NCBI GenBank assembly: GCA_902834055.1
Contig: CADFHB010000024.1
Span: forward strand, 1 to 8,431
Direction: 5' to 3'
DNA: 8,431 nt
From: Lactobacillaceae bacterium
GTDB lineage: Bacteria; Bacillota; Bacilli; Lactobacillales; Lactobacillaceae
Positions within the stretch are counted from its first letter, which is position 1; each line of letters starts with the position of its first letter. The translations under genes were made by a program, and so were the position numbers. Below, in pieces: positions 1,047-7,945 of this stretch. Below the pieces are notes generated by a model. That model was given only the letters and a program-made list of their open reading frames with translations. It ran no database searches and had not been told where the DNA came from.

Positions 1047-2852
1047 ATGGATACTAAGAAACACTACAAGATGTACAAGAGCAACAAGAACTGGTTCTAC
1101 GCCGCAATCACCACGGTTGCCGTTGCTGTCGGCTTAGTAGCCGGTGGCCACGTTGCGCAAGCAGACACCGTTTCCCCTGACACTATCGCGCAAACAACTG
1201 CGGTTACGTCAGCTGCTACCAGTACAGCAACTAGTGCTGCTTCATCCCAACAACAATCTGCTGCTAGCCAAACTAGCGCTGCTACTCCTGCATGGCAACC
1301 AGCCGATGCCAACCTGAATGCCCAACAAGCCCAATCCGCTGCCGACCAAAAGAACTACGGTAACCTGGATAACTTCAGCATTGCTGACGGTAAGTTAACC
1401 GTTTCTGGTTGGAACGCTTCTAATAAAGACGCCAACTACCAAGACCACTACCTGATTGTTTACGACCAAACTCAAGGCAAGGAACTGGGGCGGCAGGCAG
1501 TTACGAACCTGCAACGTAACGATGTGCAAAAGGTCTACCCTGGTGTATACAATGCCCAATATTCTGGCTTCAACAACACCTTCGACCTTGATATGACCCC
1601 ATACTTAAACGATAGTCTGCAAATCATTAGCCGTTACTCCAACGGTGCTAATGGTGAAGGGCAATACTTCGACAAGTGGTTTGGCCCAATCAACCTGGGT
1701 AAGGAACAAAAGGCCAACAGCATTGACAGCGTAAAGCAAACTGCTAACGGTCTTCAAGTTACTGGTTGGATGGCCGACGACGCTTCTGCAACGAAGCCAT
1801 ACGCCTACCTGATCCTCCTCAAGGATGGCAAGGAATTAACCCGGAGCCGGGTTCAACTGACCGACCGGGCCGACGTTGCTAAGGCTAAGGGCACGATTTA
1901 CAACAGTCTGCACAGTGGTTTCAGCACAACATTAAACGTTGACCAAGCCCTTTTGAGCGGTAACCTGCAAATCTTGATGCGCTACACTGATGACGTTAAT
2001 GGGAACGGTAATTACAGTGACCAGTATTCCAAGACTTACGCTTCCAACACTGGTTACGTTGATGGGTACGCATTAAACAACAACACCATCCATTACACTG
2101 GTTGGCACGCCGCTACTAACGCTAACGGGATGAACCACCAATTTATCATCGTCCTGGACGCTAACAACCACGAACTCTACCGGACTGAATTGACCGGCAA
2201 CCAAAAGAATATCAACCGGAATGACGTTGCTAATGTCTACTCCTGGATTGCCAATGCTAGCCAATCCGGTTTCAGCGTTGATATCCCAGTTCAAGCTAAC
2301 ATGCAACACAAGGAAATCCGGATCCTGCACCGTTACTCCAGCTCTGCTGACGGCAACAGTCAATACGTTGACTTTACTTCTGGTAACTACTCCATCAATA
2401 GTGGTTGGCAAGGTGACTACTACTACGACCCCGTTACCGGCCAAAAGGCAACTGGTCAAAAGGTAATCAACGGTGTTACCTACCAATTTGACGCTAATGG
2501 TAAGCTGCAAAGCAAGCAACAAAACGCCGTCAACCGGGCCCTCTCCATGCGTGGTGTTCCTTACGTTTGGGGTGGTAACACGCCAGCTGGTTTTGACTGC
2601 TCTGGTTTAGTCCAATGGGCATACGGCCTTGGCGCCCGGACCACTTACCAACAACAGGCATTGGGTGCCCACCACTACGACGTTGCTAACGCCCCACTTG
2701 GTGCCCTCCTCTTCTTCGGTTCTGACACCACCCCTGGTCACGTGGCCATCTCGCTGGGGAACGGGACTTACGTTCACGCCCCACAACCAGGCCAAACCGT
2801 AACGGTCGCTAGCCAACGTTGGTACGCACCAAGCTTCTACGTTGTTCTCTAA
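1047..2852 (+). CDS. Secreted NlpC/P60 peptidoglycan endopeptidase with KxYKxGKxW signal and repeats
   Basis: The 601-residue product is an exported cell-wall hydrolase. In order: a KxYKxGKxW-type signal peptide (KMYKSNKNW at 8-16, Gly replaced by Asn), a hydrophobic core, and a probable cut after A39 (AQA/DT); a Ser/Thr/Ala/Gln-rich stretch (about 40-100); three repeats of roughly 110 residues (106-217, 224-332, 335-450); one YYYD...FDANG module (453-488); and a C-terminal NlpC/P60 domain (about 493-601). Its catalytic residues are visible: Cys518 in FDCSG, His565 in PGHVAI and His577 in YVHAP. Cys518 is the only cysteine. NlpC/P60 enzymes typically cut peptidoglycan stem peptides at D-Glu-diamino acid bonds. 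There is no LPXTG anchor or membrane tail, so the protein is released or held by its repeats. Codons are strongly biased (AAC, GTT, CAA, AAG), suggesting high expression. A terminator follows. Confidence in the enzyme class is high; the role of the repeats is unknown. Confidence 0.93.
   Translation: MDTKKHYKMYKSNKNWFYAAITTVAVAVGLVAGGHVAQADTVSPDTIAQTTAVTSAATSTATSAASSQQQSAASQTSAATPAWQPADANLNAQQAQSAADQKNYGNLDNFSIADGKLTVSGWNASNKDANYQDHYLIVYDQTQGKELGRQAVTNLQRNDVQKVYPGVYNAQYSGFNNTFDLDMTPYLNDSLQIISRYSNGANGEGQYFDKWFGPINLGKEQKANSIDSVKQTANGLQVTGWMADDASATKPYAYLILLKDGKELTRSRVQLTDRADVAKAKGTIYNSLHSGFSTTLNVDQALLSGNLQILMRYTDDVNGNGNYSDQYSKTYASNTGYVDGYALNNNTIHYTGWHAATNANGMNHQFIIVLDANNHELYRTELTGNQKNINRNDVANVYSWIANASQSGFSVDIPVQANMQHKEIRILHRYSSSADGNSQYVDFTSGNYSINSGWQGDYYYDPVTGQKATGQKVINGVTYQFDANGKLQSKQQNAVNRALSMRGVPYVWGGNTPAGFDCSGLVQWAYGLGARTTYQQQALGAHHYDVANAPLGALLFFGSDTTPGHVAISLGNGTYVHAPQPGQTVTVASQRWYAPSFYVVL
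1362..2396 (+). repeat. Three ~110-residue protein repeats in the hydrolase
   Basis: Units lie at 1362-1697, 1716-2042 and 2049-2396. Each runs from a G-x-L-x-V-x-G-W strand through an E-L-x-R turn, an R-x-D-V block, an SGF strand and an RY[ST] strand, ending in an acidic GxGxYxD-type loop. The same unit occurs four times in the adjacent CotH protein. I do not recognise a named domain with confidence; a beta-sandwich binding module for glycans or wall polymer is the likeliest reading. Confidence 0.75.
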
Positions 2853-2873: not shown

Positions 2874-2914
2874 AACGGACTTAGTACGTTCAATGCTAAG
2901 TCCGTTCCTTTTTT
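2874..2914 (+). terminator. Rho-independent terminator after the NlpC/P60 gene
   Basis: AACGGACTTAG (2874-2884) pairs perfectly with CTAAGTCCGTT (2896-2906), with two more possible pairs inside, and is followed by TTTTTT (2909-2914). It separates the hydrolase from the CotH gene, which therefore needs its own promoter or readthrough. Confidence 0.92.
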
Positions 2915-2995: not shown

Positions 2996-5900
2996 GTGGA
3001 AGATAAAAGACATTATAAACTTTACAAGCATGGTAAATTATGGTGCTGTACGGCAATTACCATCGCTTCATTGACAATTGGAACAGTGGTCCTGCATGCC
3101 AACGTGCACGCAGATAGTAATCAACCAGCTACGACCCAAGTTGTAAGTTCTAGTTCCACGGAGGTAATGGCAAATCAACCAGCTACAGCAACCACCGAAA
3201 ACGAAGTTCCACTAGATCAAACAACTGTCAACAATAACTATGCCGCTAACGACGCGTGCCTTGACCACTACCAGGTCACTACTGATGAAAATAACCAAAA
3301 TGTATTTCAAGCCAGCGGCTGGCATGCTAGCGGGCAAAGTAATAATGAACGCTACCGTTATGCTATTCTTTACGATAACACCACCAGAAATGAAATTGCA
3401 CGGCAAAGAATTGCCCCACTAGAGCGCCCCGACGTTCAAGCGGCTTATCCGCATATCAACAATAGTCGGCTTAGCGGGTTCGATATTAACTTCGTACTCC
3501 CAAATAATATCAGTGGGCATACCATTAGCTTAGTAACACGTTACAGTAATGATGCCGTTAACGGTGAGGGGCAGCGAACAGACTTCTGGTTCAGCCCAAT
3601 CATTATCGATAACACGAACCGGGCTAACCTCGATACCCTAGCGGCTGACCAGAATGGCAACCTCCACGTAGGTGGCTGGCACGCCAGTAATCAGGCAATG
3701 GGGAAAAAGTATCACTACATTATTATCTATGATCTGACGTCTAATCACGAAATTGCTCGTCAGCTGGTTACCCCCGTGCAGCGTCCCGATGTCGCCCAGG
3801 CTTTCCCCACAATCGGTAACGCCCACGACTCTGGATTTGACGTTACCTTCAAGCTAACCCCCCAATATAGCCAGGGGAATCTTTCGATTATCAGTCGGTG
3901 GACTAATGATCCGGTCGGCAACGGAGATGACACAACCGATTTTTGGTTTGCCCCTGTGCAAAAGAATAATCAGGGCTGGCTTGACTCTTACAATCTCAGT
4001 AAGGGGCAGCTCACCGTCAGTGGTTGGCATGCCAACGATGCCGCTATTTACCAGCCATATCACTACCTTATTCTCTTTGATAACACAGCTCAAACACAGG
4101 TTGCTAGTGACCTTGTTCCTACTGATCCATCCCCAGACGTTGCTAAGGCCAATCCAAATACTCGGTCAGCTTACTCCGCCCGTTTCAACTATCAATTTGG
4201 GAAAGTTGATTGGACGGCGGGCCATACCTATTCCCTAGTGAGTCGTTACTCGATTTCTAACCAGGGCAACGGTGATGACGGTACTGCCGCAGATCATACC
4301 GATTTCTGGTTCCCGGCAATGACCCTTAACCAGCACGCCGCTTACATTGATAACTACCAGATTGATTCCCAGAACATGCTAAATGTCAGCGGTTGGTATG
4401 CCAACGATAACGCTGTCGGCAAGAATTATGCCTACGTAATTATCCTCCAGGATGGGCATGAAATTAACCGCCAACAAGTTACGATGACATACCGGCAAGA
4501 CGTCGCTGCAGTTTTCCCGACAATCTATAATAGCGCAATGAGTGGCTTTACTGCTGCAATTCAACTGCCAGCAACGGCTAAAGGAAATCTCAGTTTTGTC
4601 CTTCGTTTCAGCGACCAGAGCGATGGTGAAGGTAACTATGCTGATATCTACACGCAGCCAATTTCAAACGGCTTTATGCATAATCGGATGGTATTAGGCG
4701 ATAATAATCAGGCCTTTTACTATGACGACCAGGGTCAGGCAGCTAACAACTTTATTATCGATGGTATCCTTTACCGCACTGACGGTAGCGGAAATGTTCT
4801 CAATACCATTAAAGACAACACCAATAGTCACATCGGGCAAATTAGTTTCACTGGTGACCTCACCGGTATCAATAAAGATAACCGCAAGCCGGTACAAATT
4901 AGTGTCAAGCTAACTGACGGTACCAGTATTGATGGTTGGGCAACGATCAAATGGCAGGGGAACAGTAGTATTGCCTGGCCTAAGAAGGGCTACCGCCTAA
5001 AGCTTTTTAAGGACCAAGCAATGACCAAGAAACTAAAAATTAAGCTCCCGGGGAGCGGCTTTAAAACCAATTCTTTCAACCTCAAAGCTTGCTTTACGGA
5101 CCCAACCGCCGGGCTCAACATCGTCAACGCCGAACTGTTCAAACAAATCACAGCCTCCCGGTCCGGTCTTGCGGATTCAATTGTCAACGATATGCCAAAT
5201 TACGGTCAAATCGCTGGTTTACCACTAGAACTCGGTATCAATAACCTTGACCAAGGGTTATACGTTTTAGAAACTTACCAAGAAGACAAGCTCTATAACC
5301 TTGATGATAAGTTGGCAGATAACATTGCCTTGAGTGATAACCAATCCGATATGTCAACATTCACCCAACCTTTTACCGCTGACGACCTTGTTGATACTGC
5401 CTTTAACAACCGGTCCCCAAAGAAAGTCGACCAGTCAGTCGTGGATCGCTTCAACCAGCTTTATCAACTAGCTAATGCCAGTGATGCCGAATATTATAAC
5501 TTAGAGAAACAGTATCTTGACGTCCCGGCCGCGATTGATTACCTAACTTTCATCTCGGCAATTAATGATGTCGACGGAATTACCAAGAATATCACCTACA
5601 TTAGCAAGGCCGGTAGTAAGTGGGTCCTGATGCCCTACGATCTGGACATGACCTGGAACAACCTTTATAATGGGGAAACCATGTCGATTAATGCTAACAT
5701 GGAAGACCTGCTCAATAACTACCAGCAGCGACTTCTCTTAACAATTTACAAGCACCACCGGCAAGACGTTATTGATCGTTACCAGGCGTTGCGCCAGAAC
5801 GTTCTAAGCACGGCCAACGTCACTAACTTGTTCAACCAGTGGTTTAACAAGGTTGGTAGTGCTGCTTACCAAAATGATGATACCCTTTGGAGCGACATCA

Positions 5901-6004
5901 GTGTTAACAACGGACGCCATCCCCACCCGGTTAACGTTACTGATTTTGACAATATGATCAGCCAACGTCTCAACAACGTCGACCACTTCTTCGGTCTGGC
6001 CTAG
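2996..6004 (+). CDS. Secreted CotH-type kinase protein with KxYKxGKxW signal and repeats
   Basis: Read from GTG 2996 the product has 1002 residues. The frame is open to an ATG at 2945, but GTG gives VEDKRHYKLYKHGKLW, aligning residue for residue with the neighbour's MDTKKHYKMYK; GGGGG (2984-2988) sits 7 nt upstream. Domains: KxYKxGKxW signal (KLYKHGKLW, 8-16) with a probable cut after A39 (VHA/DS); a short Ser/Thr-rich linker; four ~110-residue repeats (85-203, 209-322, 327-442, 447-556); one YYDD...DGSG module (568-603); and a CotH kinase-family domain (about 612-1000). CotH signatures visible are WQGNSS (653-658), PKKGYRLKL (662-670) and the likely metal-binding MPYDLDMTWN (879-888). CotH of Bacillus phosphorylates spore-coat proteins; family members also occur outside spore formers. 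No LPXTG or membrane tail is present. Codon bias is weaker than in the hydrolase. Phosphate donor and target are unknown. Confidence 0.88.
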   Translation: MEDKRHYKLYKHGKLWCCTAITIASLTIGTVVLHANVHADSNQPATTQVVSSSSTEVMANQPATATTENEVPLDQTTVNNNYAANDACLDHYQVTTDENNQNVFQASGWHASGQSNNERYRYAILYDNTTRNEIARQRIAPLERPDVQAAYPHINNSRLSGFDINFVLPNNISGHTISLVTRYSNDAVNGEGQRTDFWFSPIIIDNTNRANLDTLAADQNGNLHVGGWHASNQAMGKKYHYIIIYDLTSNHEIARQLVTPVQRPDVAQAFPTIGNAHDSGFDVTFKLTPQYSQGNLSIISRWTNDPVGNGDDTTDFWFAPVQKNNQGWLDSYNLSKGQLTVSGWHANDAAIYQPYHYLILFDNTAQTQVASDLVPTDPSPDVAKANPNTRSAYSARFNYQFGKVDWTAGHTYSLVSRYSISNQGNGDDGTAADHTDFWFPAMTLNQHAAYIDNYQIDSQNMLNVSGWYANDNAVGKNYAYVIILQDGHEINRQQVTMTYRQDVAAVFPTIYNSAMSGFTAAIQLPATAKGNLSFVLRFSDQSDGEGNYADIYTQPISNGFMHNRMVLGDNNQAFYYDDQGQAANNFIIDGILYRTDGSGNVLNTIKDNTNSHIGQISFTGDLTGINKDNRKPVQISVKLTDGTSIDGWATIKWQGNSSIAWPKKGYRLKLFKDQAMTKKLKIKLPGSGFKTNSFNLKACFTDPTAGLNIVNAELFKQITASRSGLADSIVNDMPNYGQIAGLPLELGINNLDQGLYVLETYQEDKLYNLDDKLADNIALSDNQSDMSTFTQPFTADDLVDTAFNNRSPKKVDQSVVDRFNQLYQLANASDAEYYNLEKQYLDVPAAIDYLTFISAINDVDGITKNITYISKAGSKWVLMPYDLDMTWNNLYNGETMSINANMEDLLNNYQQRLLLTIYKHHRQDVIDRYQALRQNVLSTANVTNLFNQWFNKVGSAAYQNDDTLWSDISVNNGRHPHPVNVTDFDNMISQRLNNVDHFFGLA
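3248..4663 (+). repeat. Four ~110-residue protein repeats in the CotH protein
   Basis: Units lie at 3248-3604, 3620-3961, 3974-4321 and 4334-4663. The pattern is VSGWHA, then a YxYxIIxxD strand, an E-I-A-R-Q turn, R-x-DV-x(4)-P-x-I-x-N, an SGF strand, a RYS strand and an acidic loop ending DFWF. The units match those of the upstream hydrolase, so the two genes share their non-catalytic body. DNA identity between units is modest, so this is old divergence and not recent duplication. Confidence 0.75.
4829..5995 (+). other. CotH kinase domain
   Basis: This domain covers residues 612-1000 of the preceding gene. The GNSS...KKxYxLK block followed about 215 residues later by W-V-L-M-P-Y-D-L-D-M-T-W is the family pattern: an N-lobe phosphate-binding and lysine region, then the DxD metal site. 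In between, LDQGLYVLETYQEDKL (751-766) fits the family's segment leading into the active site. No key motif appears broken, so activity is plausible. Confidence 0.82.
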
Positions 6005-6130: not shown

Positions 6131-6340
6131 TTAGACATCTAAGGTCTTGCCATACTCATTGTTGATAGTGTCAACAACATCCTTGGCCTTCATGTCGTCT
6201 TCAACAATGGTTTCGCCATCACGAAGTGTGTAGGTGGTGTCGTCACTCAGATTGTTAAAATCAACATCGTTACCTTTGGCATCAACAAAATCAAACTTCG
6301 AGTTTTGGAAGTTCTTAAGAGCATCTTCATTAATTTCCAT
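6131..6340 (-). CDS. Small acidic protein of unknown function
   Basis: This 69-residue protein is not a family I recognise. It has about 18 acidic against 7 basic residues, no cysteine, no signal peptide and no membrane segment, so it should be a soluble cytosolic protein. The gene looks real: AAAGGAAG (6348-6355) is 7 nt before the ATG, a good promoter precedes it, and a terminator follows. The sequence alternates polar and hydrophobic residues in FDFVDAKGNDVDF (16-28) and YTLRDGETIV (37-46), suggesting a small beta sheet, then a helix beginning AKDVVDTINNEYG (52-64). It lies just downstream of the transporter gene on the same strand, with no evident terminator between them, so some readthrough is possible. 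No function is proposed. Confidence 0.75.
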   Translation of the reverse strand: MEINEDALKNFQNSKFDFVDAKGNDVDFNNLSDDTTYTLRDGETIVEDDMKAKDVVDTINNEYGKTLDV

Positions 6341-6439: not shown

Positions 6440-7945
6440 CTATCCCCGACCGGGCCGGTTCAGCTTCCGTTCGCCATAGTTTAGCAACCGGGTCAAGGAG
6501 AAGGTCAGGATGAAGTAGATCATCATGGCAATAAACAGCGGGAATGCACCTTTGTAAGTAGCGGACTGAACCAGCTGGGTCTGGTACATCAGCTCCGATA
6601 CCCCAATGACGGAGACAATCGAGCTGTCCTTCAACAGGGTAATAAACTCGTTGCCCAGTGCCGGCCAGATGTTCCGCAGGGCCTGGGGCATGATAACGTA
6701 CCGCATCGTCAGTTTCTGACTCATCCCTAAACTCCGTGAAGCCTCAAATTGCCCGTGGTTGATAGCCTGAATCCCGGACCGGATAATTTCGGCCACGTAG
6801 GCCCCGGAATTAATGGAAACGGCGATGATCCCCGCAACCAGGGCGGGAATGTTTTGGATTATTTCACCAATCCCGAAGTAGACAAACATTACCTGGACCA
6901 TCATTGGGGTTCCCCGGATAAACTCGATATAGGCAACGGCCAGGCTGTGCAGGACCTTATTCTTGGACCGCCGGAACATTGCGAAGATGAAGCCGAGAAT
7001 GAACCCAAAGAAGACGGAGAAGACCGTGATGATCAGGGTGTAAACAATCCCCCGAACGAAGTAGTTCCAGTAGTTCAAAACGGTATTCTGCTTGGTCCCC
7101 TGGCTCATGTACTTGCCGGCCCGCGGAACATAAACCTTGTCAAAGGTGTCGTGCTTTTGCAGCTTGGTGATTGTCTTGTTGGTGGCCGCAACCAGTCCTG
7201 GCGAATCCTTAGCAACCGCCACGGCTGTCCCCTGCTGGCCACTCACCTTGAAGTGGGGGTTGATAGCCTTCAGCTTGTCGTTATTAGCCACAAAGGCCTT
7301 GGCCCGGGTGGAGTCCATTACGACCCCGTCAACCTTGTGTGACTGGAGGGCAATGATTAAGTTGTTGACCCGGTCTAGCCCCTTTAGCTTGGCGCCCTTC
7401 ATCTGCTGCTTGGCCAGGTCGTACTGTTCGGACCCGTTCTGGGCACCGATGACCTTGCCGTCAAAGTCCTTCAGGTTCTTGTACTTTGACTCTTCGGCCT
7501 TGTTGATGACAATATCTTGGTTGTCACCATAGTAGACCTTGGAAAAATCAACACTCTTGGCCCGCTCCGGAGTTGGGCTCATGGCGGCGATGACAACATC
7601 AACCTTGTGCGTTTCCAGGGCCACCAGGAGGGAGTCAAAGTTCATTACCTTGAACTCGGCCTTGACGCCCAGGTCCTTAGCCAGTTGCTTACCGAGGTCG
7701 ATGTCGATTCCGACCCGCTTGCTGACGCCGTTTTCCTTAACGGAGAACTCATACGGTGGGTAATCGGCGGCCGTCCCGATGACAATCTTCCCCCGCTTCT
7801 TTATTGCGGCGACACTGCTCTGCTGGCTAGCGGCCTGACTCGTGGTGCTGCTAGAGATCGTGGTGTCCGCAAATACACCCGCTGGTGCGAACAGGAAGGG
7901 GAGGATAATGGCGATTAACATTAATAATTGCTTGATTTTCTTCAT
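6440..7945 (-). CDS. Polar amino-acid ABC transporter, substrate-binding/permease fusion (GlnH-GlnP type)
   Basis: The 501-residue protein joins a family-3 substrate-binding domain to a His/Glu/Gln/Arg-class permease. What is seen: a signal sequence with probable cleavage VFA/DT after A26; a binding domain (about 46-278) with YPPYEF (62-67), SPTPER (123-128, the Arg expected to hold the substrate carboxylate) and Asp211, expected to bind the amino group; then a permease (about 290-490) of four or five membrane helices with the ATPase-docking EAA loop EASRSLG (401-407). This fusion is common in lactic acid bacteria, usually for glutamine, glutamate or similar amino acids; the exact substrate is not readable. 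The ATP-binding subunit is absent from the window and must be supplied elsewhere. I chose ATG 7943-7945 over an upstream in-frame TTG (7961-7963) because AGGAAGG (7954-7960) overlaps the intervening codons and sits 8 nt before the ATG. Confidence 0.93.
   Translation of the reverse strand: MKKIKQLLMLIAIILPFLFAPAGVFADTTISSSTTSQAASQQSSVAAIKKRGKIVIGTAADYPPYEFSVKENGVSKRVGIDIDLGKQLAKDLGVKAEFKVMNFDSLLVALETHKVDVVIAAMSPTPERAKSVDFSKVYYGDNQDIVINKAEESKYKNLKDFDGKVIGAQNGSEQYDLAKQQMKGAKLKGLDRVNNLIIALQSHKVDGVVMDSTRAKAFVANNDKLKAINPHFKVSGQQGTAVAVAKDSPGLVAATNKTITKLQKHDTFDKVYVPRAGKYMSQGTKQNTVLNYWNYFVRGIVYTLIITVFSVFFGFILGFIFAMFRRSKNKVLHSLAVAYIEFIRGTPMMVQVMFVYFGIGEIIQNIPALVAGIIAVSINSGAYVAEIIRSGIQAINHGQFEASRSLGMSQKLTMRYVIMPQALRNIWPALGNEFITLLKDSSIVSVIGVSELMYQTQLVQSATYKGAFPLFIAMMIYFILTFSLTRLLNYGERKLNRPGRG

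Follow-up and report, generated by a model that had tools for sequence, protein, structure and literature searches.

The locus and the CotH protein

The window analysed here is the whole 8,431-nucleotide stretch of contig CADFHB010000024.1 from a Lactobacillaceae bacterium, which protein identities to L. panis-type loci identify as a Limosilactobacillus close to L. panis. At 2996..6004 it encodes a 1,002-amino-acid (aa) secreted protein with a CotH domain, which we consider very probably to be an exported kinase of CotH fold whose Asp/Asn/Asp site is intact. The GTG start of the gene agrees with the start of its homologues. A first-pass annotation had described an exported (KxYKxGKxW), repeat-bearing lactobacillus protein with a CotH domain, and matches to PF19258, TIGR03715 and PF08757 together with alignment of the repeats bear this out. 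The domain has already been annotated automatically, as the database title 'CotH kinase family protein [Limosilactobacillus sp.]' exists. The gene order in the window (NrdH-like glutaredoxin, nitroreductase, NlpC/P60 surface protein, CotH protein, small open reading frame (ORF), ATP-binding cassette (ABC) transporter, 79-aa ORF) is matched in genome G031. The CotH gene is organized as follows (pLDDT, predicted local distance difference test):

2996..6004, + strand: secreted CotH-domain protein, 1002 aa, GTG start (start of homologues; KxYKxGKxW and CotH profile matches)
2996..3118, + strand: KxYKxGKxW export signal, residues 1-41 (PF19258 4.2e-11, TIGR03715 2.1e-4, both over cut-off)
3119..3238, + strand: low-complexity linker after the signal, residues 42-81 (sequence; pLDDT <50 for residues 24-81)
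3239..3604, + strand: GWxA repeat 1 (repeat alignment; strand-rich in the model)
3605..3961, + strand: GWxA repeat 2 (repeat alignment; model)
3965..4321, + strand: GWxA repeat 3 (repeat alignment; model)
4331..4666, + strand: GWxA repeat 4 (repeat alignment; model)
4667..4807, + strand: short strand-containing linker from repeats to CotH domain, residues 558-604 (full-length model, strands 564-595, moderate confidence)
4808..6001, + strand: modelled CotH domain, residues 605-1002 (core matched by Pfam, 4946-5902)
4958..5002, + strand: GNSS loop and KKGYRLK, residues 655-669 including K664 (family alignment; weak local alignment to the CotH loop)
5573..5590, + strand: D860...N865, corresponding to D228 of CotH and the Asn after it (alignments)
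5636..5647, + strand: YDLD, residues 881-884, with D882 as equivalent of CotH D251 (alignments)

Fold and catalytic residues of the CotH domain

PF08757 matched the protein significantly (85.5 bits, 6.5e-24; cut-off 23.8), which excludes one possibility raised in the first-pass annotation, that of no CotH profile match. The other, a fold lacking the ATP and metal pocket, was made unlikely by the match of the domain model to a Mg/AMP-bound CotH structure; compared with solved structures, the modelled domain has a CotH kinase fold throughout. This separate domain model was used because the CotH part of the full-length model was poor (14 sequences only). The two Asp residues essential for CotH activity (D228 and D251) are present, by alignment and spacing, as D860 and D882. 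D860, N865, D882 and K664 were invariant across the family alignment, as were G655 and S657. The catalytic Asp/Asn/Asp set is kept. Among the GNSS, KKxYxLK and DLD motifs from which the domain had initially been read as apparently active, K669 of KKxYxLK varies in relatives, making K664 the better Lys candidate. A pseudokinase was unsupported, as D860, N865 and D882 were never lost in family rows covering these positions. Overall, the CotH domain is predicted to be catalytically active outside the cell, and we regard this as likely.

The window domain differs from the spore-coat CotH of Bacillus (PF08757; B. cereus 5jd9/5jda, B. subtilis CotH), with 14% identity, and the window protein, unlike spore-coat CotH, is exported on a surface chassis in a non-sporulating host. 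A profile built from 27 Bacilli CotH frames gave the window domain only 18.2 bits versus 489-619 bits for 25 of its members (the remaining two, wrongly cut, scored 73 and 209), which places the domain outside the spore-coat subgroup. Likewise, complete Lactobacillaceae matches scored ∼61-117 bits against PF08757 versus 238-334 bits for 30 Bacilli loci.

Fam20C-type secretory-pathway kinases resemble the window protein in a distantly similar kinase fold and in an extracytoplasmic site of action. A glycan kinase, which would phosphorylate the sugar hydroxyls of polysaccharide in the wall or outside the cell instead of protein, seems unlikely: Fam20 structural matches were tied with PI3K and HipA rows, a shared fold proves no function, and the CotH activity demonstrated to date is on Ser of proteins (PMC7821199).

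Export signal and repeat chassis

The N terminus scored 43.1 bits against PF19258 (cut-off 23.6) and 20.9 against TIGR03715 (cut-off 18), identifying a KxYKxGKxW signal. The accessory Sec component Asp1 was over cut-off in two of the seven CotH-bearing Limosilactobacillus genomes, and the L. panis relatives had only sub-cut-off matches. Residues 82-557 consist of four GWxA-motif repeats of ∼115 residues each, repeats 2-4 being 35-42% identical to repeat 1. They were modelled as strand-rich beads (residues 81-560; block pLDDT mostly 76-94, one at 60). No Pfam model matched the GWxA repeat in the proteins scanned; phrog_35916 matched it at 1.3e-93. In the full-length model, the repeats resembled complement, fibronectin and immunoglobulin-like strings in the PDB with large root-mean-square deviation, so no specific ligand follows. 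Their only PDB sequence match was EfAmi1 of an Enterococcus prophage, whose C-terminal domain, absent from the crystal, is proposed by its authors as a probable carbohydrate-binding module (PMC10167349).

The gene directly upstream encodes a protein built on the same plan, and a hairpin lies between the two genes:

1047..2852, + strand: NlpC/P60 neighbour, 601 aa, with KxYKxGKxW signal, three GWxA repeats and NlpC/P60 domain (PF00877 4.6e-19, PF19258 4e-14)
2874..2906, + strand: terminator-like hairpin between the NlpC/P60 and CotH genes (13-pair stem, then T run)

The three repeats of this neighbour were 29-40% identical to repeat 1 of the CotH protein, and the three best alignments between the repeats of the two proteins gave 32-35%. 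Where CotH occurred with GWxA repeats and its neighbourhood was available, a neighbour also carried them in six of six loci (window, L002, L013, L014, L015, L017), the window and L017 being the same locus in two relatives; L001 was excluded, as its contig ends beside the gene. These neighbours carry NlpC/P60 in the window and, by 96% identity, in L017, glucosaminidase in L013, a C39-like peptidase and Amidase_5 in L014, and a YkuD L,D-transpeptidase in L015 and L002, the last with an additional sub-cut-off M23 match. No Pfam domain of catalytic type appeared in one repeat protein each of L014 and L002; the scan left out a 172-aa repeat fragment of L002.

A search with the GWxA repeat (E 1e-8) was positive in 23 of 47 Limosilactobacillus genomes, with up to 96 matches per genome. 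Twenty stretches chosen from the best matches contained 25 repeat frames, of which five cut at stretch ends were dropped and 20 scanned. Their payloads were glucosaminidase (8), Beta-lactamase2 (3), NlpC/P60 (2), M23 (1), C39-like (1) and mucin-binding (1), and four frames matched nothing or, at most, the signal. Classical peptidoglycan hydrolases thus make up 11 of the 20, or 15 if Beta-lactamase2 and C39-like are assumed to be wall enzymes. The wall-enzyme-type proteins share with the CotH protein the repeats, partly the signal and often an adjacent position, but they carry a hydrolase, a transpeptidase or some other domain as payload, whereas that of the window protein is kinase-like; on this chassis, a kinase is uncommon as a payload. 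A repeat chassis that often bears cell-wall enzymes, which the first-pass annotation had overlooked, directs attention to the wall first and to the host second.

Among the 49 close homologues listed, 42 matched PF19258, eight PF19127 (choline-binding-type repeats) and seven PF17966 (Muc_B2). Rescanning of five showed Muc_B2 in two, PF19127 in two and neither in one, indicating that the CotH domain has been combined with several surface modules. Such adhesion-like scaffolds in sister proteins, with Muc_B2 or choline/glucan-binding-type repeats, would fit an adhesin or structural module, in which the CotH domain serves binding and catalysis no longer matters. CotH surface proteins of Mucorales are considered to be invasins, and phage tail or baseplate proteins contain CotH domains as well. 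However, D860, N865, D882 and K664 are invariant in the family alignment, a conservation unneeded for pure binding, and we judge a binding-only role unlikely.

Relationship to phage and other CotH domains

As an earlier quick tree warned of long branches, we relied on a mixture-model tree of 38 CotH domains. The exported KxYKxGKxW CotHs formed one clade (100/100), which joined phage CotHs and one chromosomal CotH (91/88, not starred), separate from the membrane-anchored or secreted CotHs of other lactobacilli. The immediate sister of the surface clade was chromosomal L044 (84/85), not a phage; a wine phage and L028 branched next (88/93). L044-type chromosomal CotHs, from other Lactobacillaceae, differ from the surface clade in being ∼575 aa long and in having no export signal recognised by eye. 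The wine phage, CRBO14221, was also the nearest phage-record match (38.5% identity over 80%). The label 'phage' was assigned by the analyst: L004 and L076 are phage records and L039 is near-identical to L004, L028 and L032 were labelled by tail or lysis family matches (L124, L125), and L041 and L043 by gene layout only. In the larger stretch around L028 (L124), the CotH protein starts with BppU_N and lies between Dit/endopeptidase-type tail proteins and holin/endolysin. Phage tail and baseplate CotHs (CRBO14221, Lacticaseibacillus phage R3.3, prophages, IMG/VR contigs) have the catalytic Asp/Asn/Asp in common with the surface clade, but they reside in tail proteins, whereas the window CotH stands behind an export signal.

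In phages and prophages of lactobacilli, proteins of tail or baseplate type end C-terminally in a CotH domain (L004, L076, L124 4227-7814, L125 3746-7828 and, by layout only, L126). Three PHROG families without an assigned function, 9391, 28731 and 27151, match the CotH part in both the window protein and L124, and 9391 and 27151 also match L076. The long metagenome proteins P0052-P0060, of which P0052, P0053 and P0056 were inspected, resemble phage tail proteins with a distant CotH towards the C-terminal end.

In other Lactobacillaceae, genes for VTC and DUF4956 lie beside or near membrane-anchored or secreted CotH (L129 4370-7883, L131 5109-7896, L130 4728-8269). These neighbourhoods would suit a kinase whose donor comes from the VTC polyphosphate polymerase, but the VTC-linked CotHs sit on another branch of the tree. 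VTC matched in none of 47 sampled Limosilactobacillus genomes in a search that was positive in three of 14 control genomes, so a polyphosphate donor is largely refuted for this family and was set aside for the genus; we give it hardly any credence. Neither VTC nor DUF4956 was found among the seven window proteins scanned, and the genome-wide search covered VTC alone.

The first-pass annotation had treated CotH outside spores as exceptional, which finds no support in that form. The domain matched in 26 of 350 sampled Lactobacillaceae genomes, and in 81 of 299 genomes of Bacilli (80 over cut-off). According to PMC7112168, cotH lies beside pel operons of non-sporulating streptococci, with VTC and DUF4956 genes near CotH reported near pel loci, and deletion of the secreted CotH protein of S. 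intermedius altered Pel levels and lowered aggregation (PMC12345266). The window protein resembles this protein (SIR_1594) and pel-linked cotH as a secreted CotH in non-sporulating Lactobacillales, but the surface phenotype is streptococcal; streptococcal CotH is followed by FN3 and has pel and phosphate-metabolism-type neighbours, which the window does not have. Cellulosomal CotH has been published (PMC12484212), as has phage CotH, termed 'currently unstudied' in PMC8008677, and targets of diversity-generating retroelements include CotH (PMC4159848). In the searched open-access literature, which omits most subscription papers, we found no description of CotH on a KxYKxGKxW/GWxA chassis and no link of such CotH to wall enzymes or lactobacillus phage baseplates.

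A proposed wall-retained kinase

Overall, we lean towards a model where an exported CotH-fold kinase is held in the wall and acts on wall-associated proteins, these targets being put forward as the likeliest. As in its family, the KxYKxGKxW signal would direct export via a Sec pathway and be removed, and the four GWxA repeats would retain the protein in the wall, as presumed for wall enzymes with the same repeats. The CotH domain would bind a Mg-nucleotide between its lobes via the GNSS loop, K664, N865 and D882, and D860 would serve as catalytic base, as the fold and the correspondence with D228/D251 of CotH suggest. Phosphate might then be moved to Ser/Thr of nearby wall proteins, likeliest those with the same repeats such as the adjacent NlpC/P60 protein, and this could tune wall turnover or surface assembly. 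The donor would most simply be ATP released into the wall. Action on wall-associated neighbours is, taken by itself, a tentative proposal. Still more speculative is a wider picture of a kinase working inside the Gram-positive wall on a wall-enzyme chassis and phosphorylating neighbouring wall enzymes or wall/extracellular glycan, its domain having been exchanged between surface proteins and phage baseplates, where it would modify the host surface.

The donor problem would be resolved if the kinase acted during export on itself or on co-exported proteins with cytoplasmic ATP, and both the CotH protein and its NlpC/P60 neighbour have a Ser/Thr-containing linker directly after the signal. Yet Sec substrates cross the membrane unfolded, the C-terminal CotH domain should fold outside, and the sequence gives no pointer to such action, which we therefore regard as very improbable.

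If active, the wall-retained kinase would bring kinase chemistry to the exterior of tractable gut commensals and, with one protein, a recognisable chassis, candidate neighbour substrates and gene-broken relatives, would offer a defined system for the role and donor of secreted CotH. The phage baseplate link likewise provides a testable case for phages using the same kinase fold at the cell surface.

Several points weigh against this model. Phosphotransfer, substrate and wall location are at most predictions for every family member, the source of phosphate outside the cell is a difficulty, and binding of the GWxA repeats to the wall is assumed from shared architecture. The common denominator of the CotH chassis may be surface retention and not wall enzymes; the stretches in the payload survey were hand-chosen (non-random, 16 genomes), and its eight glucosaminidases, with 57-68% identity to the first of them, seem to be orthologous. 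Within the CotH domain, identity to solved CotH is low (the 14% given above), pairing of the loop and Lys with Bacillus CotH was seen solely in a non-significant local alignment (-1.4 bits), the loop region was unaligned in four of seven phage, plasmid and prophage rows, and the loop Ser varies, like K669, in other Lactobacillaceae. The gene is also patchy, occurring in seven of 50 Limosilactobacillus genomes; three of the seven copies (G001, G031, G038) are broken or split, and the G050 copy lies amid phage-like genes (by layout) in an apparent prophage. Finally, synonymous divergence (pS) from L. panis was 0.72-0.79 for the CotH gene but 0.32 for NlpC/P60 and 0.61 for the ABC transporter, leaving recombination or allele replacement of the gene possible, and is near saturation, so that any estimate of constraint is rough.

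With this limit, comparison of the CotH domain with L. panis DSM 6035 (L001) gave 198.7 changes per 251 synonymous sites and 82.3 per 937 non-synonymous sites, the few non-synonymous changes suggesting that the protein was constrained. The copies in G008, G026 and G040 look intact. CotH orthologues of L. panis type are broken by a stop and frame changes in two genomes (L001, L017), and the G038 copy (L016 6394-10053) is split by two ORFs that resemble, by appearance only, a transposase pair. These broken and split copies suggest that the gene is often lost.

Other features of the window

Identity to L. panis-type loci was 94-96% for the NlpC/P60, ABC, NrdH and 69-aa proteins, 89% for the nitroreductase and 80-82% for the 79-aa ORF. 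Scans of the window for terminators (5 versus a shuffle mean of 5.9) and promoters (12 versus 7.6) gave counts near shuffle level. Between the CotH and ABC transporter genes lies the 69-aa ORF (6131-6340, - strand), which had no Pfam match. The amino-acid ABC transporter gene (6443-7945, - strand) encodes permease and substrate-binding domain fused into a single protein.
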